IMG/VR virus record: IMGVR_UViG_3300034093_005754
Location: 1-31,922 of that record
Strand: one strand, 5' to 3'
Length of the DNA: 31,922 nucleotides
From: a virus
Below are positions 1,399 to 22,500 of the stretch, one piece after another (position 1 is the first letter of the stretch; each line of letters starts with the position of its first letter). The notes beneath the pieces were generated by a model that saw only the letters and a program-made list of their open reading frames with translations, did no database searches and was not told the DNA's origin. The translations under genes were made by a program, and so were the position numbers.

Positions 1399-4300
1399 TT
1401 ACCTATCATATAAACCACCTCTATTTAAGCTACCTCCAGGACGACGCTCTTGCTTGATTGTCTCTTGGATTTTTGCTTCTAAAGCTTTTTCAAACAAGGC
1501 TTTGTTAATGTTGCCGTTGCCACCCTCGCTATTATTAATGTTCACGTTAGGCGTAATGTTAATCGTATCTCCACTTCTTCCTACGTTATTAATATTCCCT
1601 AAACCTTCACCTATCATACCGCCGCTACTGAAACTCTCCAATTTATTACTACTGTTTAGTTGATTCCATAACTTAGTTTCTTTTGGAGTTAAAACCCGTT
1701 CACCTTCGTTAGCGATAATTAAGCGTGGGTTAAACCCACTTATCGCCCTTTCCTTGTTTAATAAATCCCCAACCATTCCGCCTTTAGCAAAACTAGGGAG
1801 CGTAGCTGAACCAAAGTCTAATCCGCCGTCTAAACCACCTAAGCTAAAACCATCGCTAAAGTCAAATGCTCCGCTAGAACTAAATGGGATTGCGCTACTG
1901 CCTTCGAGTATTCCAAAACTACTCTCTCCAAACGCTCCAAAAATACTATCTAGCACTCCGCCATCTTTGCTACCTGCGCCCATAATATTTTGCAAGTCTA
2001 AAGCCGCTTGTTGTAGCATTGTAGCGGACACACTTAGATTAGCTCCCGCGTTATTTAAAGCGATCGCGCCCACGTCTTTAACTTTATTGCCAAAAATAAT
2101 TTCAGTTAATTTACCAAATAGTTGGTTAGACAGTTCCTTACTTGCAACAGCAGCTAAATTGCTTAAAATACTTTTTGCAATCTCGCTAAAAGCATCGACT
2201 ATACTTCTTTTACTCAACTCTGTCTTTTTCTTTTCTAAGTCTCTCTGCGCTCTATCTAATTCTTTTAGTTGTTTGTTATTGCCTGAATTTTGGTATGCGT
2301 TTCTTACTTCCTGAATATTACCGGACGTATTCATTATAATGTCGCGGCGTTTCTTAGCAATCTCATCTAGGGATTTATTAATATCCTGTAAATCGCCAGC
2401 GTTTTTATTAACAGAGTCGTTCATGAAAAATCCCTTTAGGATATTGTCAAAATCTCCTTTAATTCCGCTAATAGCCTCGGTGAACATATTAAATTCTTTC
2501 GCAACATTGTCTAGTTTTAACTCGTTTAGCTTAAGTAAATTTTCACTAAGTACAGATATTTCTTCTGCTGAATAATTACTTGATAATCCTAGTTTAGCTA
2601 TTTCGTTTTTTTCCTTCTCAAAATCCATCTTAATTTGTGATAAAAGCTGTGCTTTTTGCAATTCCTTGTCTCTAACTCCGAACAAACCCCGACCTCTTAT
2701 TATCTCGGAAGAAATTGCACTACCGGATGAATTTAATTTTTCCATCCTGCCGAGTTCAATGCCTCTATTTGTAATCGGCGCGAGCTTAGTTTGGTAAGAA
2801 TTTTCTGCGTCAAGGTTAGATTTTTCTTTTCCGTAATTACGGAAAGCTTTTAGTCGTTCTATTAATTTTTCTTGTGGACTAAGTAAGGTGTTACCTTGAA
2901 TTTCCAATAATTGTTTCTTGTAAGCATTAGTTAGCTCGTTAGTTTTTATTGTTAATTCATTGGTTAAGCTGACTAAACTAACCATCCCATCCTTATTGTC
3001 AATCGCAAACCGTTCATTGTCTAGTTGCAATGATTTCATTTGCGAGGCTTGGATAGTTTGCGATTTAGTTAATTCGTCGTTAGCTTGCTTAATTCGCTTA
3101 ACTGTATCGGCATAATTAAAGTTAAGATCAACGCCCTCTCTTTTAACAGAATTAACATTGAGAATGGCTTTAAATTCCTTCTGAAAAGCTGCTTCACTCA
3201 TGTTACCGCCCTTACCTCCGCCATCATAATAACGTCTTTGGAGATCTAGTAATTGTTGGTATTGGTCACGGGTTAATTCTAGTAAGCTAATATTTCTTTG
3301 AAGTGATGGAATTTTTAAAACCAACGGATTTAGCGGGTCAATTTCCTCAAGTTTTTGAACTAACTGTAACTGTTGTTGTAGTTGTTCAATAACTTTTGAT
3401 TGTTGCGATATATCCTGCTCGCTTAATCTGAAAAACTCTTTTTTGTCAAAATCTTTCATTGACGCTTTGAGGATGCTATCAATATTGGATTCTAAAAATT
3501 TCAAGCTATTTTTAGCTTCTGCATTTTTAAAAGCTGTAGCTTTAAAACTTAGATCGTTTGTCTGGATTGCGGCTGCGGCTAATCTCGGATCATTAGGAAA
3601 TCTCTTCATTGCCAGATTAAATGCGGCTTGTAAGTCCGGTTTTTGCGCGATCGCTCCATCCGTTTCTCTAACAATTTGCTCTAACAACTCAACATCTTTC
3701 TCTAATTTGCGGCGTAATTCATTAAATTGGAGACTAAACATATCCGCATTACTCATGGTAGGAGATAAACCTTTTAACACCGTTATTCTAGTCCCTAGAG
3801 TAGAATCTTTCGTACTGCTGATGTCTCCTATCGCGGTTTTTTGAGAGGACATAATAAGCCTGTAAGCCTCTAGCCTTTGTTTTAGCTCATTTTCTCTGAT
3901 TTGTTCAGGATTTAGGTTGCTGTTAGTTTGATTAGTTTGATATTGTTGGGCAGCGGTGTTTAATTTAAGTCTACTAGCTTGTGTTACCGCTTCCTGCATT
4001 TGGTTGGGTTGAATACTTCCGCCTTGCATAACAATCTGCACCAATTGTCGCGCTGTATTGCCGTACCGATTTTCTGCTTTGGGGAGGTAATTACCTAGCG
4101 TAATATCACCATCCCCTACTCCTAATGATGCGTTAGGATTTCCCGCAAAAACGGTAGATAAAACTTTTCGGAAGGAGTCTAGCTTTTGCCCTCTACTGTT
4201 CTGTTTTAAGTATTTCTGAACAAAGACTAATTGCTCTTGTGGACTCATTTGAGACAGAGCGTCTATGTTTGTACCCAGTCCTCTAGCCGTAGCGGGCATG

Positions 4301-7300
4301 AACTGAATTAAACCTGTTGCGTTTGTGCGTTTGTTCCTAGCAGATGGCGAAAGTGTACCACCTGTTTCATACAGCATCGTTTTAAGCAGGTCTTCAGGGT
4401 TTGCTCCTACGCTTTGAGCTATTTCGCTAACGCTTTGCAGGAACTTGGTATCTATACGTGGATCTAGCCCTGGAACAAGCGGAACTGATTGGCGTTGTTT
4501 AGCAATGGGTTCGATTACCGATATCAAACCTTCTGCCGCTTTTAATGCGTAAGGTGTAATAGCTTTTTCGTAAGCACTAAAATCGCCTGTTTTCACACCT
4601 TCTTCAATCAAGGTTGTAAGAGTTGAATTTAATCTATCCAACTCTAGTATAGAAATTCCCTTGTCAATAGCTCCCAAGCGTTCATCAGGGTTTTTTCTAA
4701 CGTCTTTACCACCCACACCCCAAAAATAACTAAATGCTCCAAATTTGTTTGCTAAACCAACATCCATTGGATTCAAATATTTACCAGACGGATCGTATTT
4801 ACCCCCTGGAATTACGCCGGGTTTACCCCCTTTAGGGTCATCAAAATGTAGTTCTAACGCATAAGCATTTTTGCTTTTCTCTAACTTAGCAAGTTCCGTT
4901 TGATAATCTTTTCTGGCTTGATCCCCTCTAGCTGACGGTAGTGGGGGTGGCTGAATGAGTTTAAACCCTTTTTGAGCAAAGACTCGCTCGAATACCTTGA
5001 CGGCTTGCTCAGTCCCAATAGATTCAATAGTTCTATTTTCGCCTTTGTAGTTTAAACTTCCTGTTTGATTTGTTCCGCCTGTACCTGTTTTGATGTCTAG
5101 TCTGTGTCCAGGGGTTAGTATTATTGATTTTGTTGGCTGTTGTTGAGGCATCGGCCAATCTGCTACCCTGTTCAGCATCTTGTTGTCTTGTGTGGTATCA
5201 ACAACCTTTTTGGTTGTATCCAATTTAATCCCAGGTACTTTAAAAGTTTTACCTAACTGGGTAGTTGGGTTTATCCTTTGACCGTTGATCGTTACCTCCC
5301 AATGTAAATGCGATCCTGTGCCACGCCCAGTGCTTCCAACTTTACCTATTACATTACCTTGCTGTACAACGTCCCCAACCTTTTTAAGTAATTCAGATAA
5401 GTGAAAAAAGCGGTTTACAACTTTTTTACCTTCTGCGGTGATGGTTTCAACTTCGACCATATTGCCCGCACCACCATTCCAACCACCTTTAGATGTGATA
5501 ACCGTGCCTGTCAGTGGTGCTTTAATTGGTGTTCCTGTAGCGTCTTCAAAATCAACACCGTTGTGCATTTTTCTAGTGCCGTCCAATGGGTCTGTACGCA
5601 TTCCGTACTTAGATGTTACGCGCCCCGGCGTAGGTCTAAGCAAAGTTTGATTAACAGTCTGTAAATTATCCAATCCGTAGAACTTTTTGACAGCCCCTAA
5701 CGGATTACTAACAAACTCTTTAGCACCCTGCTCTAACTGTTGCCCAGCTTTTTCCCCAAACACCGTGCTAACCGCCGATTGAACACCGCCCGCTAAATTT
5801 TGTAACAAGCCTTGTCCGGTAGCCAGGGAAGCTAACCAGTTGGAGGTTTTTATTCCCATATCAGCGATCGCAGTCCCCACGCGATCAAAGCCGTTCTCAA
5901 AAGACTTAACTAAATCTGCAAACTTAGTACCAAGACCTTCTATCCATGAGTTGCTAGTTTTACTTAAGTCTTTAATACTATCTTCAGCTTTTTTAGTTGC
6001 GTCTACAACACTGTTAGATAAGTTATTTATATTCTTATTAATTTCATCAACCGTCCTGTTTACGTTTTTAAGACTGAGATTAAAGTTATCGGCAATACTA
6101 GAATCTATCGAGATAATTTTTCCTGGTAAACTCCGTTGTAGTTCTATAGCTTGTAGCTGAATATCTTGGACGTTATTCTGGTAGTCAATCCTCTGTTTTC
6201 TTGCTTCTAGTCGTTGTTTCTCTATTTCGGTTGTTTGGGAAATTACATTAATAATCCCCTCAATAAACTGAGTGTAGATATTGTCCCCAGCACCAATTAA
6301 AGCCTCTCTAAGTTTATTCTGTACTTTAGGGTTTTCAAGGGTCTTTTGCGCTTTCTCAAATTCAATACCCACAGCTTGAGATTCTCGAACGGCTGCGCGA
6401 TAATAGTCGGTGACTTGCTTTGTTTGTTGGTAGAGGCTTTGGATTAAGTTATATTTCTGCTCTGCAATTTGTTGTTGCATATCAACAGTTTGGATTTGCA
6501 TTTCCTTAACTTTTATAAAGCCACTTAAAATCTCTTTTTCTTTACTTCCATCAATACTTCTTTCTTGTGCAGCCTTTAAGGTGTCTATACCGCTTCCTTT
6601 ATTTAAATTAAGGGCGTTTAAGACTCCATCTAAATCATTAACTTCCAATTGAGCGGACATCTCTTGGATTTGTTTTAAATTATCGGCAATTTTACCAGTC
6701 AGAGTGGCTTGAGTTTTTAAGTTGTTCGTATATTCCAGTTGCCCTGGTAAAACGTCCCCACTGCTGCCAAGGTTAAATAAATTAGTTTTCTCTAAACTTA
6801 ATGCTGTATCTCTATATTGTCTTAGATCGTTAAACTTAGCTTCTAAGTTCCTTATTTCAATTGCAAATTTTTGCATTTCTGTTAAGGAATTTTTAATAGC
6901 CTTAGTCATCTTGTCTTGTTCTTGAATAACTGTGGCTAAATCTTGTTTAGTTACCTTAATTATTTGATTAATTTGTTCAATTTCACTTTGATAAAGTTTG
7001 GGATTTTTCTTTAGTTCTTCCCAATACTCCAAATAAGTTTTTAAAGTTTCTACTTGTTTGTCTAAATTAGCTTTAGTTCCGCCAAACAATTCTAAGGGCT
7101 TTTCTCTTCTTTGACTTAATTCTTTTTCTTGTTCTTGCAGTTCTCTTAATTGTTGAATGTCGCCAGGATTGTTAGCAATAACAGCCCGACGCTTCATTTT
7201 AATATCATCCAAAGATTTATCAATGGCTTGAATTTCTTGGATAGCGTCTTGTATGGCAGGAGAATTACTATCTTTCAAAATATCGAAAGTGTTTTGTTGC

Positions 7301-10300
7301 CCAATAGTTGTTTGTTTGGCACTATCCTCCATTTGTTTTTTTAGTTTTTTTGTATCGTTATCAAATGGGTTAAGCGTAAACCTTTCTCTAAGTGCTGAAA
7401 AGTCATCACGGCTAACTTTAGAGGATGGATTTAATAATTTTCTTTGTTCATTAATAGACTGAGTAACGTTTCTAGTCTGTTCGCCAATTGCGCCGCTGTT
7501 ATCCTTGAAATTCATCATTATTTCATCAATAGCTTTCATCGCCATTGATAAAACAAACATCTGAGCAGCTAAAGTTGCAATACTTTGACCCATCCCCAGC
7601 AATGCACCCTTAGCCCCTCCCGCAGAAGAGGAAATTCCTTTTAAATACGTCGCAAACATTAACCAAACAGGACTTCCTAATTTAATTAAGGTAATCAGTA
7701 AGACACTTTTTAAGAGTTGGAAATTCTTAGTTACTAAATCTATACCAGACGCAAAAACACTTAAAGAAAAGTTTCTGAAAGGCAGTAAAGTTTTACCAAT
7801 ACTTTCCTGTAACTCAATTAAGGAATTATTGAATTTATTAGTTATCGCCACTGAAGAATTAACGGCATCTCCTACACCTGATGAAGTTTGCGCTTTTAAT
7901 TGTTGAGCAAATTTTGGCAAAAAGTCCTCAGCTAAAACCCTGCCCGTTGCTAAGAGTTGGTTCATGGACTGGGTGGTTGTTCCGTAAGCATTTGCGGCGA
8001 TTTGCGAAGCGTTGGGGATTGCTTCAGCGAGTTGTTGTCTTAATTCCTCTTGAGATACAACCGTTTTTCCAGACATTTGCTCAAGCGCGGTAAAAGTCCT
8101 TTGCTGCTTGTCTAAATCTAAACCATAGACAGCCGAAGCTTGAGTGACTGCGCTAACGATCTGGCGAGATTGATAGCCTTCTATGGGAGTATCCTTAGTT
8201 GCCTGGAAGAATTTACTGCCACTTTCTAAAGTTTGGCTTAAGTCAACGTTGAGTCTTTTTGCTTCCGATCTTAAAAATGCAATATTTTTAGCACCCTCTG
8301 AAATGCTTCCAGAAGTGAACTTAATCCGTCTCTCTAAATTCTCAAAGTTAGCGGCGACTTCTATGCTTGCGGGAGCTAAATCTAAGATAATTTTCCCTAC
8401 GGCCAACAAAGCTAGGACTTTAACAACATTACCTATAGAAGATTTAACAAAGTCCATCATCTCGCCAAATTTCTGGACTTTACTCATTCCCTCTACAAAA
8501 CTATCAAAAGCCACCTTAGCCTGGATGAACCCTTCCTTAATTTTTTCTGGCATCTTAAGGAAATCTACAAATAATTCCTTAGCTGCAACAATACCGTTAG
8601 CTAACCCCTCGCCTAATGCTGCCGATACGTTAGGATTGGCGATTTCCTTAAGGAAATCTAAATAACCCTTAAATCTTTCCTTAGCTTCCTTAAATCCTGG
8701 GATACTTCCTAATCCTTTACTAAAGCCTCGGCTTAATTTATTTTTAAAGTTTTCCGCAGTAGAAGTTATATCTCCATCTTCTACAGCAGATTTAATATCG
8801 TTCATTAGCTCTATAAATATGCCAATAATACTAGAATCTTCTAAAAACCCAAGTCCCTTAGTAAATCCTTCGCCTACGTATTTACCAATTCTAATACCCC
8901 ACCTTGAGGGAGATTTAATTTCTAATTTTTCCTCAACGGTATCTATTACTGTATTTGCTAATTTTTCAGAAGATGATTTAACATTTTTTAAAGAATTATT
9001 TATACCTTCACTTAAACCTCCTCCTACGTTTTTACCAGTTCCTTGAAGTGCTGCGAGTTGTTTATTAAACTCATCCACCATTGCCTGTTGAGCTTCGGAC
9101 AGTGGTGGTTTTTTGCCGACTTGTTGGATAGGTGCAGGATAACCCTCCGTTGCTTTAACAGTTTTATGAGCAACTTCGCCAATCGCCTCAACAGGTTTAT
9201 TGGCTGACTTCCTGATACCCTCAGACAGTCCTTTGTTGATGTTGATGCCAGCCGACTCAGCAGCTTTTAAAAATTCAGGATTAAAATCGCCAATAACTTT
9301 AATGTTTTTGCTTAACGCTGTGCGAATAAAGGCAAGTAAGCTATCGCCATACTTTTTGAATAGTTGATCGGAAGAAATTTGGCTACTACCAATACGAATA
9401 GCTGAAATGTCGCTAGGCAAAACTGGAACGTGAGTTTGAGCTTCGACGTAGCCAGAATTTTCCTCATAGTTTCTCATCAAGTTTGCTTTGGGTGAAACAG
9501 AGCTTAATTGCCTAAATTGCGAACCCCTCCCTTCATAATCTTCTTTTAATTCTTCTATTGACTGATGTCTGTCTAAGTTGCTGTCTCTTTGAAGCCATGT
9601 TGTTTTATTAGCAATCCTAGACGGATCGATTAAAAACTCAATAGCCCCATAAGCCTCGTTTTTGGTATGATCTGCGCCATACTCTTTATGGCGCAAAGCA
9701 CTATAAAGAGTCCCACTTCGTCCAAACAGTTCAAGCTCTCTGGCAGCGCGATTGCTTGACGGTCTTCCCATCAATCCACTGCCAAGAATATTGTTTAGCT
9801 TGGATGGATCAAATGACGTTCTGTGGCTCAAATACCAGTCACGCAAGCTGTTTGTTAATTCCTCTCCGCCATTTAATTTTGGATCTTGATTAACGAAGTC
9901 AAAAGTTTTTGCAACATCGTCAATCCCAGACTTAGCTATTTCTTTAACCTTGTCTAAACTATTCTCTAACCCAATCCCGTAACCATCTCCAGTATTTTCG
10001 CCATACCCCTCCATTACTTTAGATGGAGATTGCATTTTTAATTTTTCTGTAACTACGTCAGGTACTATATCTGCTAATTTTTCAGCCGCAGTGCGTAAAT
10101 CACCTATGCTATTTTCCAAACCTTCGGTCATGCCCTTGCCTACATTTTCCCCAACGCTAGGTAAGTTTAGTTTATTAACGTTAACTATCCTATCTGTTTT
10201 ATTTTGGACGCTAGATATTTGACTTAAAGTTTGTCCTAATTGACTGCCCAACCTTGTCGAGCCAACGTTATTATTCTCACCTAAAGTTTTAGTGATTAAT

Positions 10301-12696
10301 TTAATCTCTTCTCTTGCTTTAACTCCCATCTGCTTAATGGTCGCCGCCATATTTGCGGCTTCATCTAAATTACCAGACTTAGTTAAAGTTTGTAAAGTTG
10401 CAAAACTTTTGTTAAATTGCGCTGCAATATTTCTAGCTGATTCTAGTCCAACCCTTGCTTCAGGGCTTAAATCTGCATCTTTCTCCCTAGTCTTAAAATC
10501 TTTTAAATATTCTTGCCCTTGGGGAAACTGTGCATTTATTCTAGCAAGTCTTTGGTTGTCAGTGTATTTTTCTCTAGCGGTTCTAGTGTCTTTTTTGGGA
10601 TTTTTATTTAAGTCAGTTAATCTAGCTTGTTCTTCTAAAGTTTCCAATACTCTAGTTTGTAAAGTTTTTAATTCGGGATAAAACTTAACAGCTTTTTCTA
10701 ATGTTTTAGCTAGAGATTGTTTAATCTTTGCTCCAGAATCTAAAAATTCAACAATACCTGCTCTCATTTCTTCTAAAAAAGCAGTATACTCATCAAACTC
10801 TGGTTTAATGTCTTTACCTATTTGTCTCGCGTTTGGTAAATTTCCCATCATGGAAGAAAAGTCATATTCTCCTCTTCTCCATTCTGGTTTTTGAGGAACT
10901 GCAAAAGTATAACCCTCCGCGCCGTTAAATCCTGCTTTTTCAATTTGCCTTAAGGTTGAGCCGTCACCCAATACAGCTTTAAGAGTTCTAACTAAACTGT
11001 CTTTCTCATCTAATTGAGATTTAAAAAAATGTAAATTAGGCTCACTCTTTATCCCTTTAGATAAAGACGGACTTACGGGATCTATCGCGTCTCCCAAAAA
11101 CGACTGTATTTGTTCATTTACCATAGGCTTGGTTAGGAAGGGAAGTAATGCGTGACCCTTCCCCGCTCCTGGTATAAGAGACATTAATGGGGACTCCTCC
11201 ATAAGTCCCGGCATACCATAAGACATCACCTTGAGAGTTGCCTTATACACTGGATGTTCTTTGTCCGCTACATTTTTACCGCCAAACATAACAACGTTTA
11301 AAGGATCGAACTCTCCAACTAAGGATTGGTAATTTTTCTGACTAGCCGTAGTCATTAAATTATTTACTGGTGCTGTCAATCCCAATCCCTTTACGTTCGT
11401 TATTCCTGCCCTTTCTAGGATTGCGATCGCTTCCTCGACTATGTAAGACCCACCACTTGTCCCCGCTAACTGAATGGGTTTGTCTGGATATTTTTTTCGG
11501 TAAGCCATAGCTTCAGCGGCCATCTTTACCGAATCCGGGTTATATCCTTTCTCCAAGTTAGTATGTAAAAGCATATCAAACGGCATAGGCTCAGATGCAG
11601 GTCTTTCAACTCCGTCCGCGCCAACCACCGTGCCACTACTTAGATCTGCCCTAAACTGATAAATCTGCCCTAAATTATTTTTATCATTTGAATAAGGGTT
11701 AGTAACGGGAACAGAATAAGACCCCGGCAAAATCCTTTTGACTAAGTTCTCTGCAAAAAAAGTATTTCGCCCACCCTTCTGGAAGTCAATACCTCCAGTA
11801 ATTAAAGAAATTGATTTAGCTTTTTTTATATCTTCGTTGTCAGCGACATTTACATTTTCTGACATTTTTGCAGCATCTTGCGCGGATTGAGCGAGTAATA
11901 CTCTTTTTCTAATTCTTAAGGGTTGTGCGCCAACTTTAAGAACTTGTCCTGCTGCGGTATATGCAATTTCTTGAATTTCGTCAACTATAGGCTGAAACGC
12001 TGCTTTAAATTTCTCTTGCGCCTGAGTTTGATTTTTAAATACGAACGCATCTTCCAGTGCACTAACAATATCGTCTTCAAATTTTTGAATACTTTCTGGC
12101 GTAACCTTAGATAAAGGTTTCGACACTGCGCGGGTAAAAGACTGAGTAGCTCCAGCGACATCTAATCCTAAGTTTTTCTTAAACCCAGACATTAAATTTT
12201 TACCAATCGTTCTACCAAACTCCTCAGTAAGTCCTGTTCCTAAAGACCGACCTAAACTTAATTTAGCCGAATCCATTACGGCTTTTTCTACTGATTTTAA
12301 TTGTCCGACTATTTCTCTAGAATTGTTATTATTATTAATTACTAAATTGGCTTTTTCTTTATTTACTTCTACATCTACTCTCACTCTAGCTCTGCCGTTA
12401 CTACCTTTGGTTAGCGATGCTAATTCCTTATTTAAGTTAGTTAATTCCCCGTCATCAACAAAAACTTTTAAAGGATTGTTTTTAAAATAAGTTTGTGTTT
12501 GCTTAAAGTGAGTTACCTTTAAGTCAAAATGTTTATTAAGGTTTTTTAGCGAGTCATCATTAACGCCTATGGTTAAATTAAGATCTTTCTCTAGAAATTG
12601 AGCTTGTTTAATAGCCTCGACCCTAGCCTTTTTTATATCTTCCATTAGCTTGGAGTAATCACCAACTAACTCAACAACTAATTGTGGTAATTCCAT
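1399..12696 (-). CDS. giant tape measure protein with M23, amidase and SLT domains
   Basis: A 3765-aa tail tape measure that sets tail length and helps DNA entry. The core lies at about residues 1430-1600 (ANFENLERRI to the QELRQQLAEAIPNASQIA region), with long coiled-coil stretches after it and SPS-K/R glycine motifs near 890 and 1258. Three peptidoglycan-cleaving domains follow one another. M23 endopeptidase spans about 2355-2480 (HNGVD H2378/D2382, HLH H2463/H2465). An amidase_3-like domain spans about 2525-2730 (probable zinc ligands H2531, E2558, H2617). A lytic transglycosylase spans about 2750-2860 (E2777 in YETGG, GLIQFMPATA). Near the N-terminus, residues about 295-480 look like an alpha/beta hydrolase with nucleophile elbow GTSGG (S414). 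Residues about 950-1145 are a globular module I cannot assign. It starts 5 nt after the GT reading frame ends. Lambda's tape measure is 853 aa, so this is very large. Confidence 0.93.
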   Translation of the reverse strand: MELPQLVVELVGDYSKLMEDIKKARVEAIKQAQFLEKDLNLTIGVNDDSLKNLNKHFDLKVTHFKQTQTYFKNNPLKVFVDDGELTNLNKELASLTKGSNGRARVRVDVEVNKEKANLVINNNNNSREIVGQLKSVEKAVMDSAKLSLGRSLGTGLTEEFGRTIGKNLMSGFKKNLGLDVAGATQSFTRAVSKPLSKVTPESIQKFEDDIVSALEDAFVFKNQTQAQEKFKAAFQPIVDEIQEIAYTAAGQVLKVGAQPLRIRKRVLLAQSAQDAAKMSENVNVADNEDIKKAKSISLITGGIDFQKGGRNTFFAENLVKRILPGSYSVPVTNPYSNDKNNLGQIYQFRADLSSGTVVGADGVERPASEPMPFDMLLHTNLEKGYNPDSVKMAAEAMAYRKKYPDKPIQLAGTSGGSYIVEEAIAILERAGITNVKGLGLTAPVNNLMTTASQKNYQSLVGEFDPLNVVMFGGKNVADKEHPVYKATLKVMSYGMPGLMEESPLMSLIPGAGKGHALLPFLTKPMVNEQIQSFLGDAIDPVSPSLSKGIKSEPNLHFFKSQLDEKDSLVRTLKAVLGDGSTLRQIEKAGFNGAEGYTFAVPQKPEWRRGEYDFSSMMGNLPNARQIGKDIKPEFDEYTAFLEEMRAGIVEFLDSGAKIKQSLAKTLEKAVKFYPELKTLQTRVLETLEEQARLTDLNKNPKKDTRTAREKYTDNQRLARINAQFPQGQEYLKDFKTREKDADLSPEARVGLESARNIAAQFNKSFATLQTLTKSGNLDEAANMAATIKQMGVKAREEIKLITKTLGENNNVGSTRLGSQLGQTLSQISSVQNKTDRIVNVNKLNLPSVGENVGKGMTEGLENSIGDLRTAAEKLADIVPDVVTEKLKMQSPSKVMEGYGENTGDGYGIGLENSLDKVKEIAKSGIDDVAKTFDFVNQDPKLNGGEELTNSLRDWYLSHRTSFDPSKLNNILGSGLMGRPSSNRAARELELFGRSGTLYSALRHKEYGADHTKNEAYGAIEFLIDPSRIANKTTWLQRDSNLDRHQSIEELKEDYEGRGSQFRQLSSVSPKANLMRNYEENSGYVEAQTHVPVLPSDISAIRIGSSQISSDQLFKKYGDSLLAFIRTALSKNIKVIGDFNPEFLKAAESAGININKGLSEGIRKSANKPVEAIGEVAHKTVKATEGYPAPIQQVGKKPPLSEAQQAMVDEFNKQLAALQGTGKNVGGGLSEGINNSLKNVKSSSEKLANTVIDTVEEKLEIKSPSRWGIRIGKYVGEGFTKGLGFLEDSSIIGIFIELMNDIKSAVEDGDITSTAENFKNKLSRGFSKGLGSIPGFKEAKERFKGYLDFLKEIANPNVSAALGEGLANGIVAAKELFVDFLKMPEKIKEGFIQAKVAFDSFVEGMSKVQKFGEMMDFVKSSIGNVVKVLALLAVGKIILDLAPASIEVAANFENLERRIKFTSGSISEGAKNIAFLRSEAKRLNVDLSQTLESGSKFFQATKDTPIEGYQSRQIVSAVTQASAVYGLDLDKQQRTFTALEQMSGKTVVSQEELRQQLAEAIPNASQIAANAYGTTTQSMNQLLATGRVLAEDFLPKFAQQLKAQTSSGVGDAVNSSVAITNKFNNSLIELQESIGKTLLPFRNFSLSVFASGIDLVTKNFQLLKSVLLITLIKLGSPVWLMFATYLKGISSSAGGAKGALLGMGQSIATLAAQMFVLSMAMKAIDEIMMNFKDNSGAIGEQTRNVTQSINEQRKLLNPSSKVSRDDFSALRERFTLNPFDNDTKKLKKQMEDSAKQTTIGQQNTFDILKDSNSPAIQDAIQEIQAIDKSLDDIKMKRRAVIANNPGDIQQLRELQEQEKELSQRREKPLELFGGTKANLDKQVETLKTYLEYWEELKKNPKLYQSEIEQINQIIKVTKQDLATVIQEQDKMTKAIKNSLTEMQKFAIEIRNLEAKFNDLRQYRDTALSLEKTNLFNLGSSGDVLPGQLEYTNNLKTQATLTGKIADNLKQIQEMSAQLEVNDLDGVLNALNLNKGSGIDTLKAAQERSIDGSKEKEILSGFIKVKEMQIQTVDMQQQIAEQKYNLIQSLYQQTKQVTDYYRAAVRESQAVGIEFEKAQKTLENPKVQNKLREALIGAGDNIYTQFIEGIINVISQTTEIEKQRLEARKQRIDYQNNVQDIQLQAIELQRSLPGKIISIDSSIADNFNLSLKNVNRTVDEINKNINNLSNSVVDATKKAEDSIKDLSKTSNSWIEGLGTKFADLVKSFENGFDRVGTAIADMGIKTSNWLASLATGQGLLQNLAGGVQSAVSTVFGEKAGQQLEQGAKEFVSNPLGAVKKFYGLDNLQTVNQTLLRPTPGRVTSKYGMRTDPLDGTRKMHNGVDFEDATGTPIKAPLTGTVITSKGGWNGGAGNMVEVETITAEGKKVVNRFFHLSELLKKVGDVVQQGNVIGKVGSTGRGTGSHLHWEVTINGQRINPTTQLGKTFKVPGIKLDTTKKVVDTTQDNKMLNRVADWPMPQQQPTKSIILTPGHRLDIKTGTGGTNQTGSLNYKGENRTIESIGTEQAVKVFERVFAQKGFKLIQPPPLPSARGDQARKDYQTELAKLEKSKNAYALELHFDDPKGGKPGVIPGGKYDPSGKYLNPMDVGLANKFGAFSYFWGVGGKDVRKNPDERLGAIDKGISILELDRLNSTLTTLIEEGVKTGDFSAYEKAITPYALKAAEGLISVIEPIAKQRQSVPLVPGLDPRIDTKFLQSVSEIAQSVGANPEDLLKTMLYETGGTLSPSARNKRTNATGLIQFMPATARGLGTNIDALSQMSPQEQLVFVQKYLKQNSRGQKLDSFRKVLSTVFAGNPNASLGVGDGDITLGNYLPKAENRYGNTARQLVQIVMQGGSIQPNQMQEAVTQASRLKLNTAAQQYQTNQTNSNLNPEQIRENELKQRLEAYRLIMSSQKTAIGDISSTKDSTLGTRITVLKGLSPTMSNADMFSLQFNELRRKLEKDVELLEQIVRETDGAIAQKPDLQAAFNLAMKRFPNDPRLAAAAIQTNDLSFKATAFKNAEAKNSLKFLESNIDSILKASMKDFDKKEFFRLSEQDISQQSKVIEQLQQQLQLVQKLEEIDPLNPLVLKIPSLQRNISLLELTRDQYQQLLDLQRRYYDGGGKGGNMSEAAFQKEFKAILNVNSVKREGVDLNFNYADTVKRIKQANDELTKSQTIQASQMKSLQLDNERFAIDNKDGMVSLVSLTNELTIKTNELTNAYKKQLLEIQGNTLLSPQEKLIERLKAFRNYGKEKSNLDAENSYQTKLAPITNRGIELGRMEKLNSSGSAISSEIIRGRGLFGVRDKELQKAQLLSQIKMDFEKEKNEIAKLGLSSNYSAEEISVLSENLLKLNELKLDNVAKEFNMFTEAISGIKGDFDNILKGFFMNDSVNKNAGDLQDINKSLDEIAKKRRDIIMNTSGNIQEVRNAYQNSGNNKQLKELDRAQRDLEKKKTELSKRSIVDAFSEIAKSILSNLAAVASKELSNQLFGKLTEIIFGNKVKDVGAIALNNAGANLSVSATMLQQAALDLQNIMGAGSKDGGVLDSIFGAFGESSFGILEGSSAIPFSSSGAFDFSDGFSLGGLDGGLDFGSATLPSFAKGGMVGDLLNKERAISGFNPRLIIANEGERVLTPKETKLWNQLNSSNKLESFSSGGMIGEGLGNINNVGRSGDTINITPNVNINNSEGGNGNINKALFEKALEAKIQETIKQERRPGGSLNRGGLYDR

Positions 12697-12701
12697 ATAA
12701 T

Positions 12702-13924
12702 TTACTCTTCTAATAATAAACTGATTGAGGCTAGAACTTGAGGACTAACTAAACTATTCTCAAAGGCAAACTTAATACAAGATTTTGTTTCTTCACTAAT
12801 GCCCGCCTTGTCGGTTTTAACTTCATTCTTGAACGGTAAAAAATCAGTCCACGAAATATTTTTACCGCCCAAGAACCCATAAACCACTTCCGCCAACCTT
12901 GCTGTTGCAAAGCTTTTTTCGTTAGACTTGACCCTATCAATTTTTTCCAGTCTTGATAGGGTGTCTAAAATTACAAAAGGCGGAAGTTGGAGGAAATTTA
13001 CCCAACTACTAAATCTACTGTCTTGGATTCCGTGCTTTTGGATCTGGAGGTAGATGGTGTACCAGTCAATGTCGTCTCCGCTTCCACTTCCGTATTCATC
13101 TTCTTCACTTCCTCCAGCGGAGTTAGAGCTTTTTTTTCACCTTCAGGATCTTCTATAATATTGAGGCTTTCGGATTGGTAAAACTCAAAGACGGCTTGGA
13201 TTAATTCTTGGGGAAGTCCTGCAATGTCAGCAAAGCTTAAATTCTCGCAACCTAGGACATACTGGCGGTCAAAATTATCGTACAAGAATCCAAGTTCTCC
13301 GTCTTTAATTTTTCCGGGAGATTTCTCAATCACTACGTCCTGGACTTCAGAATCGTGATTTCCTTTAACTACCAGAATTACATCACCGAATTTAATATTT
13401 GTCCCATCAGGAAGAGGGTATCCTAACTCTTCGATCTTAATTTTTTCACTATTTATTAAGACACTTTCTAGTAGTTCTACATGATAAGCGAGTCGTCCTG
13501 GAACAAATACGGGTTCGGGATTACCTTCGACGTAAAAACCTCCCATGATGGTTTTGGCGACAAAATTCCAAATTTCTAAAGTTGGAACTTCATTCTTGTT
13601 TAATTCGCCTAATTCTTCTTCGTACTCACTTAATACTGTATCTTGATCACTGGGAAAAACTCTAGTCCCGTCAACTTCCTTACCAAAAATGTATTCCGAA
13701 GCTTCTTCCCTGCTTATACCTTTATCCTTAGCAATACCTTTAATTACGGCATTAATTACGCCAGTAACTTGTTTTTTAGTAGCCGAATATTTTTTAACTT
13801 GTAACAACTCACCGGCTTTTACATAGCCCAATCTTTGCAAATACAAATAGCCGTGATTTTCTGTACCGACAGCGACGATTTCTGCCTTTTTTTTCTTGGA
13901 ATTGGAAGGTTTTACTTTTAGCAC
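12702..13924 (-). CDS. tail assembly chaperone, GT-like -1 frameshift product
   Basis: Predicted 407-aa protein: residues 1-265 from the zero frame (GTG at 13924), then a -1 slip at A AAA AAA (13136-13130), then 142 residues read from 13130 to the stop at 12702. The -1 frame is closed by TGA just upstream of the slippery run and open from there on. It contains no ATG, GTG or TTG before 12896, so it has no good start of its own. The extension begins with a Ser/Gly/acidic linker, then a folded part with WYTIYLQIQKHGI, FATARLAEVVYGFLGGK and WTDFLPF. A WxxFLPF-type motif is typical of the T half of lambda GT-like chaperones. In long-tailed phages G and GT bind the tape measure during tail assembly. 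The tape measure gene starts 5 nt downstream, as expected. Confidence 0.8.
12931..12962 (-). other. 10-bp stem-loop in the T extension
   Basis: ACCCTATCAA (12931-12940) and its perfect complement (12953-12962) flank a 12-nt loop. On the minus-strand mRNA it lies about 36 nt after the zero-frame stop at 12998 and about 170 nt after the slippery site. That is too far for a classic frameshift stimulator, but it sits within the -1 coding extension. Confidence 0.4.
12998..13924 (-). CDS. tail assembly chaperone, G-like zero-frame product
   Basis: A 308-aa protein starting with GTG at 13924, overlapping the end of the preceding gene by 7 bp. It is the unshifted product of the chaperone locus. The N-terminus is lysine-rich (residues 4-14). 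Next comes a region reading LYLQRLGYVKAGELLQVKKY, like the start of cyanophage tail chaperones, then acidic and mixed alpha/beta sequence. After the slip site (residue 265) the zero frame encodes a low-complexity Thr/Ser/Glu/Lys tail ending in VDLVVG. That is what one expects of a non-essential tail on G. Lambda G is 140 aa, so this G is over twice as long. Identification rests on position (between tail tube and tape measure) and on the frameshift, more than on clear similarity. Confidence 0.75.
   Translation of the reverse strand: MLKVKPSNSKKKKAEIVAVGTENHGYLYLQRLGYVKAGELLQVKKYSATKKQVTGVINAVIKGIAKDKGISREEASEYIFGKEVDGTRVFPSDQDTVLSEYEEELGELNKNEVPTLEIWNFVAKTIMGGFYVEGNPEPVFVPGRLAYHVELLESVLINSEKIKIEELGYPLPDGTNIKFGDVILVVKGNHDSEVQDVVIEKSPGKIKDGELGFLYDNFDRQYVLGCENLSFADIAGLPQELIQAVFEFYQSESLNIIEDPEGEKKALTPLEEVKKMNTEVEAETTLTGTPSTSRSKSTESKTVDLVVG
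13130..13136 (-). promoter_or_regulatory. -1 ribosomal frameshift slippery heptamer A AAA AAA
   Basis: A run of eight A on the minus strand (13137-13130) is read in the zero frame as GAA AAA AAA GCT, so the heptamer A AAA AAA is in exact X XXY YYZ phase. An SD-like AAGGTG lies directly upstream, and a small CTCC/GGAG stem about 8 nt downstream. A -1 slip opens 142 codons with a recognisable chaperone T half. Confidence 0.8.
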
Positions 13925-14148
13925 AATTCTATCTCCAGGTTTGTGTTAATTATGGTTGTGTTGTTGTCTTTAACTTCTGGGGGAATTTTTATCTTAAATT
14001 CTTCCCCCGTTTCTGAGAATAATGAAAGTTCTCCAGATAATCCGCCCCTAAAAAACGCCGCGCCACATAAAATTTTTGTCTCGCTAGAATTAAGTCGGCA
14101 GTTAAATAACGCAACAATGTTTTTAGATATATCTGCAAGGACTTTCAT
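13918..14148 (-). CDS. hypothetical 76-aa protein of the tail module
   Basis: A 76-aa protein between the tail tube gene and the chaperone gene, with tight spacing (18 bp after the tube stop, 7-bp overlap with the chaperone start). It contains a predicted helix at the start (MKVLADISKNIVALF), a Cys in the CRLNSSETK stretch, a G-rich turn (FRGGLSGEL), and beta-like C-terminal sequence FKIKIPPEV. No family is recognised. In transcription order it lies where some phages carry small tail or chaperone-related proteins. Its embedding in the tail operon supports a virion-assembly role, but there is no direct motif for one. Confidence 0.65.
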   Translation of the reverse strand: MKVLADISKNIVALFNCRLNSSETKILCGAAFFRGGLSGELSLFSETGEEFKIKIPPEVKDNNTTIINTNLEIELC

Positions 14149-14166: not shown

Positions 14167-14880
14167 TTATGAGTAAGGGTCGACCCAAGTAAAGGAAGTC
14201 CCTTGCAAGTGAGCGGTAAAGGAATACTTTTTAACTTCGTTGTAACTACCGGGCTGGCTGTAGTCCGTAATTAAAATAGCCGCTTCAATAATTTCGCCGT
14301 CTGGATAGACAGCGTAGAAATACAATTCGCGTCCAAAATAGCCGCCATCTCTTTGGGTTTGCTTAATAAGCTGTAGCGCAGGATCTCCGCCAACTGGGGA
14401 ATCGTAATGGTTTTCTACGCCAGAGAATTGGATGGTTCTATCGCTACGGATGGCCTTTTTCTCAGTTCCAGTGCCACTTAAAGTATTGGTTGTGTCCACT
14501 GTGGTTGTTTGAGCGGCCAAGGGGAACTCTTGAATCCCGTACATGGGGAGCAAATCATCAACAATCCTTGCTGTACTTCCGGTAGCGATCGCGTATTTTG
14601 AACTAAAGATGGGAATGTTAGTCGCTGTAGTCGCTACGGTCACATCTTCCGAAATGAGGACATAAGTTCGCGCTTTATCCCCATCCTTGAAGAAGGATAG
14701 TGCCATACCTGCTTTTAAGTCTGTCGCTACAGAAGCAGTACAAGTAATTACAGTCGCGCCAACAGCGACGGCTACTGTAGACGTAAGAGTTCTTGCGACT
14801 ACAGTTCTTGTGCCTTTGGGCAATAGTAAGATTCCTGCACTAAAACCCTCTAAAGATGTAGTGTTGTAAGCTAAAGGCAT
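14167..14880 (-). CDS. major tail tube protein
   Basis: A 237-aa protein rich in Thr, Ala, Val and Gly, with extended beta content and few Lys or Arg at the N-terminus. Its C-terminal part (GRELYFYAVYPDGEIIEAA, then a turn, then YSFTAHLQG and a short end) follows the pattern of siphovirus tail tube subunits, in which a conserved strand reading YSFT.. closes the tube beta-sandwich. A good Shine-Dalgarno (AAAGGA) precedes the ATG. It stands between the tail terminator-like gene and the chaperone/tape measure genes, the expected place of gpV-like proteins. It would polymerise around the tape measure to form the tail tube. No sheath gene lies next to it, which argues against a contractile tail. 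Confidence 0.78.
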   Translation of the reverse strand: MPLAYNTTSLEGFSAGILLLPKGTRTVVARTLTSTVAVAVGATVITCTASVATDLKAGMALSFFKDGDKARTYVLISEDVTVATTATNIPIFSSKYAIATGSTARIVDDLLPMYGIQEFPLAAQTTTVDTTNTLSGTGTEKKAIRSDRTIQFSGVENHYDSPVGGDPALQLIKQTQRDGGYFGRELYFYAVYPDGEIIEAAILITDYSQPGSYNEVKKYSFTAHLQGTSFTWVDPYS

Positions 14881-17077: not shown

Positions 17078-19492
17078 TTAAACAGCCCTACGCGCAACTC
17101 TTAATTTAGCGCAACGGGTTTGTTGTCCTGCTGGGGAAGCTAAAGCTGCATCCAAGTCAATAACGCCAGTTTGTTCACGGCTAATCCAGATAAAAGATTC
17201 TCCCATGTTAAATGGAGTTGTACCAGAAGCGCGAACTTCCATTGGTAATGCAATACCGCGACCGACCGCACCGTAGCTAAATACGAAACAGTCTTCAGTA
17301 ACGGTTGCGCCCGCGCCAAAAGTAGTTGTGTTTACGGTTGGATCAGATCCACCTGGCGCACCAACACCCCATGTATTGCCTGAGAAAATTTCAAAGCCGC
17401 AATATTGACCGACGTAACCTGAGCTTTGTCCGATTTCAATTCCAGAAGCCGCACGGAGAACGTTAGAAATATTCTGGCGTTGTTCTTCAGTTACAGGAGA
17501 GTAAAGCTTGCCTAAAGATTTCTTTAGATTGTCTAAGGATTTAGGGGGAACTGTCAAAATGTAACTGTTATTAGGCAAAGTTGGCCATTGGTCGGCGTAA
17601 AGCTGGGAATAAACAGAAGACAGGAAGTCTTCAGTTAAAGTACCGTCATCTGTTGCGGCAACGTTAGCCGGAACGGACGTTACTTCACCCTTATCGTTGT
17701 AATAAACTTTAGTTGTCTTAAAGTATTCCTTACGCACCATCAAATCTTCAAATTTGAAGTAGTGCTGCATTAATACTTTATCCAACACTGCCATTAAGTC
17801 AATTAATGACGTAGCTTCAGTAAATTCTGGAATAAATACAGGGCGGTTGCCTACTCCTGTGCTTAAACCTAGACCCCATTGAGCAATAGTTAGCGGGACT
17901 GTGGTAATTTCCAAGCCTTGAGAATCTGTAGAAGTACCACGAGTATAATTAATGCTGGTATAGGTGTCGGTTGTGCTGATCAGGAAGTCGTTAACATCTG
18001 TAGGATCGGCTAAATTATTAGCGCGAGGAATCAGGATGGATTTATTGGGCGCAGATGTTGAGTCATATATAGTGGAAGCAAACTGCCACCAAATATTATT
18101 GGAGTTGTGAGTTTCTCTCATTAAAGCTGAGAGAACATCCAAGAAAATTGCGCCAATGCTGCCGCTCGATCCGATAGTTGGCCCGGCCGCACGACCAGAA
18201 AGAAATCCGCCACCCTCAGAAGATTTAAAGTAATTTTCTAATTCTTTAACCAAAGGAGCGTGTTTCCAATCACGCAAACCCTTAGTGGCTTGCTCTTCAC
18301 GGAAGTGATCGTGCATGAATCTAGCTAAAACATTATGATTCCGTTGGACTGCAACCATTCCATCGTGGCGAACTTCTGTAGGTTCGGCTTTGGAACTGTT
18401 AAATAAGTCAATAAATTCTTTAGCTAAACCTTGCATGGCAAACTTTGGGGTATTTTTAACGGCGGGGACGACTTCAGATCCGGAGCGGCCAATTAACTGC
18501 GAAATATCTTTAAGGGTATCAGCTAATTGCTGGGCTTTTAATCTCTCGGCGCGTTCTTGGTCTAATTCTTGTTTTAAGCTTGAATTTTCTGCTAAGGCTT
18601 GAGATTTTTCTTGTTCTAGAACTAAATTCATTTCCCGAACTGGAGTTACTGTTTCAAGAATTAATTTTCTAACGGCTTCTAAATCTAAGCCTTGAGGCTT
18701 CAACTCTGCTACGGCTACAATCTCCCTTTCCTCTAGCGCAGGAACGGGGTCGGGAGTTGAAGATTTAACTTCTTCTAAAGGTGTTAGTGGAGGCATATTT
18801 TTACCTTTAATTTGAATAATTTTAGGCTCATCTTTTCCATTGCGCTGTTGTAGGCTTTTACCTACTCCTACCGTCGGGTCGGCGGGTACGCTTGCATGGG
18901 ATATCTCAAATATTTCCCAATTTTTACTTATCCTGACTGGGTAATAACCCCTGTCTGCGAGTCCGTATTTTTCAATAAGAGCGGCGGCTTCTTTCTTGGG
19001 AAGTTCGGTGTATTCATCCTGTACTTGGTACATGAACGAAACACCTTTACGAGTACCCTTTTGGACTAAGTTATATAAGTCTCTACCCTCTGCGTTGTCG
19101 TCGTACTGGACATCGCAAATAGCCTTACCTTGGGAGAAATTTACCCCCATTACTAGGCCGCGTTGCAAATCCCAATTATGATTCCAAAGAATTGGGCAGA
19201 CACCTTCTGTAACCCTTTGAGTATTGCAACAGCCTGGCTCATGGGAAAGAACTTCGTAATATCTCTCATCTTCCCAGTAATCGTATCTAAGGATTGGATA
19301 TTCGGAAGAAAAAACAAAACTTGCGGTTAAGTTTCCTACTACTTCTTCCCCACTCTCCTCTTCCTCCATATCCTTATTTAAATTTAAAGATTTTGAGAAG
19401 TTGGGAAGAATTTCCAAATTAAAATATCGCGTAGCTTGACCTACGGCAATTTCACCATCCTTAAGTTCTAACCTTGCATTTTTCTCTGACAC
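17078..19492 (-). CDS. prohead protease-major capsid protein fusion
   Basis: An 804-aa protein with two parts. Residues about 45-215 resemble the S78/HK97 prohead protease: a His in LWNHNWD (H105), a Ser in KGVSFMYQV (S152), and the closing motif EISHASVPADP (H199), fitting an assemblin-type Ser/His arrangement. Residues about 233-340 are charged and coiled-coil-like, as in a delta/scaffold domain. Residues about 340-804 look like an HK97-fold major capsid protein (SPVTEEQRQNISNVLRAAS, GYVGQYCGFEIFSG). Protease and capsid protein are separate genes in HK97. Residue 233 is a Met preceded by AAAGGT 6 nt upstream, so an internal start could also make protease-free capsid protein. Translation begins at GTG (19492) with a weak ribosome site, so the start is less certain than the rest. 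Confidence 0.82.
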   Translation of the reverse strand: MSEKNARLELKDGEIAVGQATRYFNLEILPNFSKSLNLNKDMEEEESGEEVVGNLTASFVFSSEYPILRYDYWEDERYYEVLSHEPGCCNTQRVTEGVCPILWNHNWDLQRGLVMGVNFSQGKAICDVQYDDNAEGRDLYNLVQKGTRKGVSFMYQVQDEYTELPKKEAAALIEKYGLADRGYYPVRISKNWEIFEISHASVPADPTVGVGKSLQQRNGKDEPKIIQIKGKNMPPLTPLEEVKSSTPDPVPALEEREIVAVAELKPQGLDLEAVRKLILETVTPVREMNLVLEQEKSQALAENSSLKQELDQERAERLKAQQLADTLKDISQLIGRSGSEVVPAVKNTPKFAMQGLAKEFIDLFNSSKAEPTEVRHDGMVAVQRNHNVLARFMHDHFREEQATKGLRDWKHAPLVKELENYFKSSEGGGFLSGRAAGPTIGSSGSIGAIFLDVLSALMRETHNSNNIWWQFASTIYDSTSAPNKSILIPRANNLADPTDVNDFLISTTDTYTSINYTRGTSTDSQGLEITTVPLTIAQWGLGLSTGVGNRPVFIPEFTEATSLIDLMAVLDKVLMQHYFKFEDLMVRKEYFKTTKVYYNDKGEVTSVPANVAATDDGTLTEDFLSSVYSQLYADQWPTLPNNSYILTVPPKSLDNLKKSLGKLYSPVTEEQRQNISNVLRAASGIEIGQSSGYVGQYCGFEIFSGNTWGVGAPGGSDPTVNTTTFGAGATVTEDCFVFSYGAVGRGIALPMEVRASGTTPFNMGESFIWISREQTGVIDLDAALASPAGQQTRCAKLRVARRAV

Positions 19493-19587: not shown

Positions 19588-22500
19588 ATGTTTAACGAAG
19601 TTTATGCTCCGTCCGCAAAACCTGTGTTTTACCGCACTTATTCAAGAGGTAAAAAAGAGACATGGCAAGATGTTTGTGACCGGACAATTACGGCATTAAT
19701 TTCTCTGGGAAAATTAACTAAGACTGAGGGTGACTTAATTAGGCGATCGCAGGAAGAATTTAAAGTATTAAGTAGTGGAAGATGGCTGTGGTGTGGTGGT
19801 ACAGATTGGTTAAAAAAGCCAGAAAACGTTTACGGTGCTTATAATTGCTCATCCACAAACATTACAGACTGGGAAGCATTAAGCTTAATGATGAATTTGG
19901 CTATGCAGGGATGCGGGACTGGCGCAGTGTTGGAAGATAAATATATTAAAAATCTTCCTATTATAAGGAATAATTTAAGCGTAGAGATTGTTAATTTACC
20001 TGGCACTGTAAAAAAAGAAAACAGGCACGATGACACTATCGTTAGCGGCGCGCGCGGACAAGTTAACATTTTTGTTGGAGATAGCCGTAAGGGTTGGGTA
20101 GACTCTTACCTTACACTTCTAGAGTTGTCTTCAAGGGAAGATTTAGCGAAAAACGTTAAAGTTTTCGTTTGCTTAGGTGCGGTAAGAAGTAGTGGGGAAA
20201 AACTTAAAGGCTTTGGCGGAACAGCTAATCCCATAGCTTTAGCTGGGATGTATGGAAAATTAGCTAAGATTTTAAACGGGGCTATAGGTCGCCAACTTAC
20301 CGCTTTAGAGTTATGCAAGTTAATTGATGAGGCTAGTGTTACAATTGTAGCCGGAAATATAAGAAGGTCGGCGGGCATGAGACAGGGTTCGCCAGAAGAT
20401 ATAGAGTTTGCAACAGCTAAAGATAACTTGTGGCAACAAGACAATGAGGGTAACTGGAAAATAGATCCTGACAAAGATTGCTTAAGAATGGCTAATCATA
20501 CGTTAGTTTATCACCGTCGCCCAACTTTAGAAGAGGTCAAAAAAAGTGTGCAAAAACAATTCCACAGCGGTGAAGGTGCAATTCAATGGGCTGGCGAAGC
20601 GGTAGCTAGAGCTAACGTGGATTTACTCTCTAATAAGGATTTAAAAAATAAGTTTTTAGACTTATACAATAAGTCCTTAAATGAAGCATTAAATTTTTTA
20701 GCTAAGTTAGGGCTGTTGAGTATTACTGAAGCGGAAGAAAGGATGTCTAGGTACGCTACCAACCCTTGTTTTCGTGGGGATATGAAAATATTAACTAAAG
20801 ATGGTTACAGAGCATTCGAGTCGTTGGACGGTCAAGATGTAGAGATAATTAACGCAGAGGGCAATGTTTCTCTATCTCATATATGGTGTTCAGGTGAAAA
20901 GGAAACCGTAAGGGTAGGAATGGGGGCTTATGGAAGTATTCACTGCACTCCAGATCACTCTTTTTTAAATATTGATGGCAAAAGAGTTGACGCATCTGAA
21001 TTAAGACCGGGTGACAGATTAATGCCATTCTTAAAAGTGCCAGAGCATAAGAATAAAATATTCGTTTGTTTAGGATTTGTCCAAGGTGATGGTCAATTAT
21101 CTGATTTATCTGATTTGAAAAACGACAAAAAAGGGCAACTAGGTGTTGCTGTCAACATAGGTAAAAAGGATCAAGAAATCCTAGAATTTTTCCAAGAAAC
21201 GGAAGGTTTGAAATGCAAGAAACATGGCGAAAGGCGTATTTATGTTAACGGACTGAATGAGTTAATTGACAAATACGACTTTTCTCTTTACACCCTTCCA
21301 TTTCGCGCACTCCCATCCACTTATAAAGGCTGGGACTTAGACATAAAAGCATCGTTCTTGTCTGGACTTTATTCAGCTAACGGCAGTGTTCTAAAAAACG
21401 GCAGAGTGACCTTAAAGACGACCTGTAGAGAAATGGGCGAACAGATCGTTGATTCTTTAAAAGCAGACTTTGGCATAGAAGCTTATATAACCGTTAACCG
21501 TCCGACGACCGTGTCGTTCCCTAATGGTATTTACCAATGTAGAGAAAGTTACGACGTAAATATTCAGCAATACAAAGAGAGACTTTCATTCTTCAACCAA
21601 ATCAACTTTATTCATTCGTACAAGATTGATAAATTTGCCAAAACTCTCTTGGCAACCTCTCCCTCAATATCGGTAGTAGAAAAACAAGGGATTGTAAAAG
21701 TTTATGATTTTTCTGAACCAATAACGCACTGGGGTGTAGTAGAGGGCTTTGTCGCGCATAATTGCGGAGAAATTGTGGGTAACAATTTTTTCTGCGATCT
21801 CGCTGAAGTACACCTAAACACGCTAGATGGAAAAGACTTAAATAGTTTAAGAGACTCATTTAGGGCTGCGGGTTTAATTGCAGCCGTACTATTAAATGAC
21901 AAATTCCCTGACGAGAGATATCAAAAATCTAGGGAGTTAGACCCTATTGTTGGCGTTAGCTTTACTGGCTTATTTGACTTTTTCGTTAATTTATTTGGGG
22001 AAAGTTGGTTGCGCTGGTGGGAAGGCGGCAGGGAGGAATACTCAGACAGAGACTTTATCACATCAAAGGATTTAGAAAATTGGATAGAAACATTCCCAGA
22101 TGAGGTAGTTGAAATTATTAACGATTGGAATAAAAGCCAAGGGAAATTTGCTATAAAACACCCCGGCGTTTGCAACGGACTACTTTTTAAAGCCTTGGAA
22201 GAATTTTACCTGACGCTTTTTAAAGATGAAGCCCATAAAGCAGTTTGGGAATACTGTCATGCACATTCGCTTAAACGCCCCAATAGATGTACTACGGTGC
22301 AACCAAGCGGGACTAAGAGTCTCTTAACTGGCGCGTCTCCTGGTTGGCATCCTCCAAAAGCTGCTAGATTTATCCGTCGGATTACTTTTGGCAGAGACGA
22401 TGCAGTAGCTTTAGCTTGTATGGACTATGGCTACAGTATTATTCCTTCCCAATCTTGTAAAGATGCTGAGGGTAATTTATTAAACGATCCATTTGACCCA

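Follow-up and report, generated by a model that had tools for sequence, protein, structure and literature searches.

The window, by which we mean the whole 31,922-nucleotide stretch analysed here (IMG/VR virus record IMGVR_UViG_3300034093_005754), very probably encodes a tail assembly chaperone pair of the G/GT type, in which a −1 frameshift on A_AAA_AAA yields a minor GT fusion. This kind of frameshift is already known, and the window represents a divergent new case of the G/GT device. Our evidence is of three kinds: the layout of the sequence, selection for coding in each of the two frames, and the −1 arrangement with a slippery heptamer observed in relatives. From it we infer the ribosomal shift, its frequency and the chaperone role of the products. 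In the proposed mechanism, the majority of ribosomes would read G through to its own stop at 12998, and a minority would slip one base back at 13136-13130, where two Lys tRNAs would re-pair in the −1 frame. Slipped ribosomes would continue into the T domain, giving the GT fusion. If the analogy with lambda holds, the very long tape measure protein would be bound by many copies of G and few of GT, and T would recruit the major tail protein, which would polymerise around the tape measure.

Two overlapping ORFs, G and T, sit between the major tail protein and tape measure protein genes, in the order major tail protein - small ORF - G - T(−1) - tape measure (Table 1). The tape measure gene follows T by 5 nt (ATG at 12696), as the first-pass annotation had it; its giant product also gives a sub-threshold SLT match. 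HMM support for the major tail protein is weak. Synteny supports this assignment, the product being 41-42% identical to that of the syntenic gene of Cylindrospermopsis phages, and we regard it as likely.

Table 1. Features of the G/T locus and flanking tail genes in the window
Feature	Positions	Strand	Description
Tape measure protein	1399-12696	minus	3765 aa; ATG 12696, 5 nt after the T stop; Pfam TMP_3 3e-19, Peptidase_M23 4.8e-25
T	12702-13130	minus	−1 part that would be added by the shift; 142 codons + stop; Gly/Ser/acidic linker, then T domain
G	12998-13924	minus	Zero-frame ORF, putative tail chaperone; GTG start at 13924; 308 aa
Slippery heptamer A_AAA_AAA	13130-13136	minus	Inside the A8 run 13137-13130, in GAA AAA AAA G
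TGA	13137-13139	minus	Stop codon shutting the −1 frame immediately before the slip; in L019 it is not conserved
Small conserved ORF	13918-14148	minus	76 aa; lies between the major tail protein gene and G; 41% identity with clade II
Major tail protein (tail tube), likely	14167-14880	minus	PHROG 820 E 0.0021; Pfam Phage_tail_2 E 0.098, below cut-off

The first-pass annotation had described an in-phase slippery run followed by a −1 frame that is closed just upstream and open downstream, and these observations were reproduced. The zero frame reads ...GAA GGT GAA AAA AAA GCT..., with GAA AAA AAA GCT at 13138-13127 on the minus strand. The −1 frame is shut by TGA and then open from 13136 to 12705, over 144 codons of which 142 lie past the slip, up to the stop at 12704-12702; none of 20,000 first-order random sequences of equal length stayed open in this way. 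The slip codons are residues 264-265 of G, the last 43 codons of which are read only without the slip, and the predicted fusion has 265 + 142 = 407 aa, the length given earlier. The earliest ATG, GTG or TTG of the −1 frame is indeed the TTG at 12896. The motif WTDFLPF, which had been placed at the end of T, is internal: it lies near residue 100 of the 144-codon frame and is followed by about 40 residues ending in LLEE.

A_AAA_AAA is the sole slip-type heptamer in the G/T overlap of the window. Nine in-phase copies were counted by eye in the 9,322 codons scanned in the window ORFs; since such heptamers are common in this AT-rich genome, the heptamer by itself is weak evidence, and it is raised above chance by its place and by the relatives. 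G contains a second in-phase heptamer, A_AAA_AAG (13892-13886, minus strand, codons 11-13), inside another A8 run; the −1 frame at that point ends at 13809.

RNA signals around the slip were also considered. No clear stimulator was found downstream of the slip in the window (z 0 to −1.9 in eleven windows). Across 22 chosen members of the family, which are not independent rows, the first 40 nt after the slip are modestly more structured than background, with a mean z of −1.24 compared with −0.19 in 208 windows (Mann-Whitney p 0.0004), and less so at 5-45 and 0-60 nt (p 0.03); the window itself is unremarkable. An SD-like GAAGGTG lies directly against the slip in the window and is in the top 3% of its gene; it is too close to the slip for the usual −1 spacing. 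No general SD signal was seen across the 22 members. Of the 60-nt windows of the GT gene, the one at about 12884-12825 gave the strongest hairpin prediction (z −6.5 with 60 shuffles); it is inside T, far downstream of the slip.

Coding selection was addressed first of all with close relatives. A protein scan of IMG/VR retrieved 18 contigs carrying a G 92-99% identical to that of the window, which together with the window amount to 8 distinct GT sequences. The A8 run and the open −1 frame are kept in 18/18. In L019, the most distant of these relatives, a 12-nt deletion in the overlap preserves both frames. Between the window and L019, differences in G number 9, 9 and 29 at zero-frame positions 1, 2 and 3 (29/47 third), and those in T past the G stop 13, 6 and 30 at the −1-frame positions (30/49 third). 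In the stretch of T before its first usual start codon the −1-frame figures are 2, 0 and 8 (8/10 third). Comparison of two more distant members, L020 and L051, gave third-position differences of 113/145 for G in the zero frame and 57/71 for T in the −1 frame, with 18/21 differences at −1-frame third positions in the 95 nt past the G stop. The third-position bias moves from frame 0 to −1 in both clades.

The overlap comparison is the weakest part of this argument. In the 120 nt after the heptamer (gap aside), 6/7 differences between the window and L019 are at zero-frame third positions; the T-frame constraint is therefore not dominant in the overlap, where the zero frame is the quieter one. Counted by codon (silent/changing), the linker has 2/3 differences in frame 0 and 0/3 in frame −1, and the T core 2/0 and 0/2, respectively. 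Judged by the substitution patterns in G and T, both frames are under coding selection.

More distant relatives were then collected. By tblastn, the Cylindrospermopsis phages CrV-01T (L020, MH636380 28357-29528) and Cr-LKS4 (L021, OQ625504 29016-30187) have a G 27.5% and a T 32.8% identical to those of the window; the window phage is related to viruses of bloom-forming freshwater cyanobacteria. Both deposits annotate G and T as separate hypothetical proteins, T with its own start, and the present analysis thus gives names to two such genes. A scan with an alignment of the major tail protein (a 45% identical pair) returned 52 loci, 18 of the window's clade and 34 others (L123-L156). When these 34, some of them cut by contig ends, were searched with profiles, 33 had a match to the small ORF, 32 to G and 29 to T; in L130 the major tail protein and the small ORF are present, with no G or T match beside them.

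Two scans with T alignments completed the set. The first gave 71 loci, 70 with an upstream ORF (L071 is too near the contig edge), and 33 distinct junctions. From the best 80 of 141 matches of the second, 46 already-seen contigs were dropped, and the 34 analysed gave 18 distinct junctions. Junctions were called distinct when their DNA differed anywhere from a point 12 or 30 nt before the T frame through to the G stop. The set of 53 junction rows thus consists of 51 distinct distant junctions, the window and L019. Homology of the upstream ORF to G was profile-tested for L123-L156; in the loci new in the T-alignment scans the upstream ORF is a putative G. No relative was confirmed in cellular genomes by two contig scans (window G; G alignment), and none of clade II G (clade II being the Cylindrospermopsis-phage-type relatives) was found in plasmids. 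Among the matches listed in literature searches on frameshifting with tail assembly, cyanophages or GGGGGA/GGGGGAG, there was no report of this chaperone family, and the word 'frameshift' does not occur in the main texts of PMC10811720 (on Cr-LKS4) and PMC7156551 (on Mic1, discussing CrV-01T). For cyanophage Mic1, PMC11237433 names two chaperone genes, gp18 and gp19.

The alignment of homologues that the first-pass annotation had proposed as a check was informative. The A run is replaced in many relatives, yet in 52/53 rows T is in the −1 frame and exactly one slip-type heptamer is present in the overlap, a count that does not stand for 52 independent cases, many rows being near-copies that differ by a base or two. 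We defined slip-type heptamers as X_XXY_YYZ with Y = A or T, or GGGGGAG. The latter was put on the list after being seen, which is answered in part by its zero background: in the 17,914 codons of these ORFs that lie outside the overlaps, canonical heptamers occur 42 times and in-phase GGGGGAG 0 times. The 52 rows divide into G_GGG_GAG (27), A_AAA_AAA (20, of which 16 belong to one group, L269-L302), G_GGA_AAG (2; L128/L217 and L223) and one row each of G_GGA_AAC, A_AAA_AAC and A_AAA_AAG (L279-L286). An A run is also found in L221/L222. The misfit, L143/L184 (contig IMGVR_UViG_3300045125_000170), has four G instead of five and T in a +1/−2 geometry; its shortened run may reflect either faulty sequencing or a genuine switch in the direction of the shift.

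G of the window aligns with clade II as far as the slip. Clade II is without the A run, which rules out A8 as the site of the whole family, and has instead GAG GGG GAG (G_GGG_GAG) at protein position E-G-E, two codons before the slip codons of the window; its G stops (TAG) 8 codons after the slip. Relatives with a T identity of 27-34% slip at the protein position of the window or two codons before. In the 27 G_GGG_GAG rows the residue before GGG varies (Glu, Gln, Pro, Lys, Arg) and its third base is always G, compared with 15% of codons ending in G in the upstream G parts of 36 rows, which points to selection on nucleotides. Three traits that had been singled out as unusual in the window turn out to be shared: G measures 231-367 codons (stop to stop) in 37/53 rows and 179-188 in the other 16, the slip lies 8-50 codons ahead of the G stop in 52 rows, and the linker is Gly/Ser/Thr-rich or acidic in most rows (SDEEE in L269-L302; L279 and L226 are exceptions).

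In a 36-row tree, built without L226 and L269-L302 and with the slip codons left in the rows, at least six changes of slip label were counted regardless of direction, one of them being the L184 misfit. The window clade falls near L216 (G_GGG_GAG) and L217 (G_GGA_AAG) with modest support (82/87). The A_AAA_AAA of the window clade and that of L221/L222 fall apart, an uncertain placement given the long branches that meet there. Tandem re-pairing of both tRNAs in the −1 frame fits A_AAA_AAA of the window by sequence; G_GGG_GAG departs from the X_XXY_YYZ rule, and its Glu tRNA would need a middle-position G:U pair. On the whole it seems probable that what selection keeps is a −1 shift located immediately before T rather than any particular slippery sequence, that six heptamers interchange, and that the commonest of them, G_GGG_GAG, is a true −1 site despite violating the rule. 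The family is in this respect a natural experiment, with the −1 shift held and the heptamer differing between clades. If the proposal is true, it would also offer a natural series in which to measure the determinants of slippage at a heptamer and the relation between GT:G ratio and tape length.

With both frames under selection and the slip position matched in relatives, the −1 G/GT-type frameshift originally suggested for the window is the best-supported reading. The same or nearly the same protein would be made if RNA polymerase slipped on A8 and an mRNA with one extra A (or two fewer) joined G and T, which we judge very unlikely as the whole explanation. A8 is a homopolymer, one extra A predicts an identical protein (EKKSS), and L221/L222 and the L269-L302 group likewise use an A run; but G_GGG_GAG serves at 27/52 −1 junctions and G_GGA_AAG or G_GGA_AAC at others, all of them sites of the ribosomal type that contain no long homopolymer, and the heptamer is in phase for tandem tRNA slippage in 52/52 rows. 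Ribosomal and transcriptional slippage may both contribute in the window. Tandem slippage of two Lys tRNAs is, from the sequence, the simplest account for it.

Translation of T alone, initiated at a −1-frame start codon or by ribosomes that re-initiate past G, is less probable still. The GenBank annotators of MH636380 and OQ625504 assigned T its own start, at 29268 in CrV-01T and 29906 in Cr-LKS4. These starts are about 45-52 codons after the T frame opens, and both homology and the −1 third-position bias extend upstream of them. Since −1-frame coding begins near the G stop, the two genes look like parts of joined −1 frameshift genes, of which start-codon calling loses about 45-50 codons of T. 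In 38/53 rows, window included, no ATG, GTG or TTG precedes the core motif [IVT][DNE]W in the T frame, and −1-frame coding is seen there. Rare starts are conceivable, namely ATT at 13070 for the window and, for clade II, the ATA at the G stop; however, this codon is a conserved Ile codon, and the GGAG ahead of the ATT in the window is GGAC in L008-L019. Initiation at the ATA overlapping the G stop of clade II was considered unlikely, no Shine-Dalgarno sequence being found by eye at a fitting distance. Separate translation would, moreover, leave the strict −1 geometry and the single heptamer unexplained. An ATG, GTG or TTG does occur between the slip and the T core in 13 of the 16 rows of the L269-L302 group (L269-L298) and in L184, where separate initiation of T is possible; in L187 such a codon occurs only upstream of its slip. 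Of the refuting case imagined beforehand, a broken A run with T kept separate under its own start, the first part is seen in many relatives, where the run is replaced, but a slip-type heptamer with T in −1 persists in 52/53 rows; a start of its own is possible for T in those 13 rows and L184 and absent in 38/53.

An assembly or homopolymer error, or a decaying gene of which one frame is real, can practically be dismissed: A8 and G5 runs are error-prone on some sequencers, and L143/L184 with its G4 may be a case, but the G/T layout recurs in 18 separate contigs, which together with the window make 8 distinct sequences, and in two named phage genomes, 50/51 distinct distant junctions share it, and both frames are under selection.

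Concerning the identity of the parts, PHROG 337 (tail protein) was matched by T of the window (E 0.002), by T of L019 (0.0056) and by lambda T as a control (4.7e-7), and PF06223 'Minor tail protein T' by 1/5 members at E 0.071, below its cut-off. No match was obtained by hhalign between T and lambda T or between G and lambda G. T shows at most a weak resemblance to the lambda T family, at the profile level. G of the window has no Pfam or PHROG match below E 1, and relaxed profile scans of six G members gave scattered weak matches only. According to PMC5009743, G and T are conserved despite low sequence similarity, and the missing G similarity is therefore no defining test of membership. AlphaFold models were too poor for use (pLDDT 46 for T, 35 for G).

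Other genes of the window were recorded in passing. At 19588-22971, a 1127-aa ribonucleotide reductase with a B12-type insertion domain has a LAGLIDADG domain and a sub-threshold intein-splicing match, and likely carries an intein. The N-terminal part of an 804-aa protein (17078-19492) matches 'major head and protease' families, making it a possible protease-capsid fusion. A NADAR-domain protein is encoded at 24188-24619 (PF08719, 9.1e-24), and two DNA methyltransferases, of D12 N6-adenine and C5-cytosine type, at 27437-28357 and 28574-29590.

Among known systems, the window resembles lambda gpG/gpGT in the −1 frame and in the slip near the end of G; its T may be remotely related to lambda T via PHROG 337. 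The lambda order V-G-T-H is also that of the window, except for the extra 76-aa ORF before G. Lambda slips on G_GGA_AAG, and the relatives L128/L217 and L223 likewise carry GGGAAAG, whereas the heptamer of the window is A_AAA_AAA. The window further differs in the length of G (308 vs 140 aa) and of the tape measure (3765 vs 853 aa), with no detectable G similarity. In lambda, as summarised in PMC5009743, the G-T shift is low-level, G binds the tape measure and T binds the tail tube; the same paper describes the shift as widely conserved, T4 excepted. Lys-Lys slippage on an A run likens the window to E. coli dnaX (A_AAA_AAG), and in E. coli A_AAA_AAG is reported to slip more than A_AAA_AAA (same paper). 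The window differs from dnaX in its putative tail chaperone product, in A_AAA_AAA and in having no clear stem-loop.

CrV-01T and Cr-LKS4 share with the window the same upstream genes, T in the −1 frame and the lack of a usual start before the core. They differ in their slip, G_GGG_GAG, and in a TMP_3 match 31-34 kb away from G/T; that of CrV-01T falls within a 4422-codon open frame at a distance of 34 kb. In the window and in many relatives a long ORF opens no more than about 50 nt past T; where enough DNA is present, no long plus-strand ORF was found close behind T in the rows of the Cylindrospermopsis-like type or in L158, L171/L172, L148 and L184.

A close parallel to the G_GGG_GAG of the relatives comes from actinobacteriophages. 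In PMC10885494, all of the roughly one thousand 'fivetwo' motifs in the SEA-PHAGES set analysed with PRFect are GGGGGAA, most of the genes so joined are tail assembly chaperones, and G:U pairing is suggested for the second tRNA. For corynephage phi16, PMC5506516 puts forward GGGGGAA together with an internal SD and a pseudoknot. The two sites are nearly the same, with five G and a Glu codon, a −1 shift, and tail chaperone or tail assembly genes; the relatives, however, have GAG and not GAA, the window uses A_AAA_AAA, and the phages are different. The majority site of the family, G_GGG_GAG, is outside the textbook motif and so tests whether GGGGGAR slips with one or two tRNAs.
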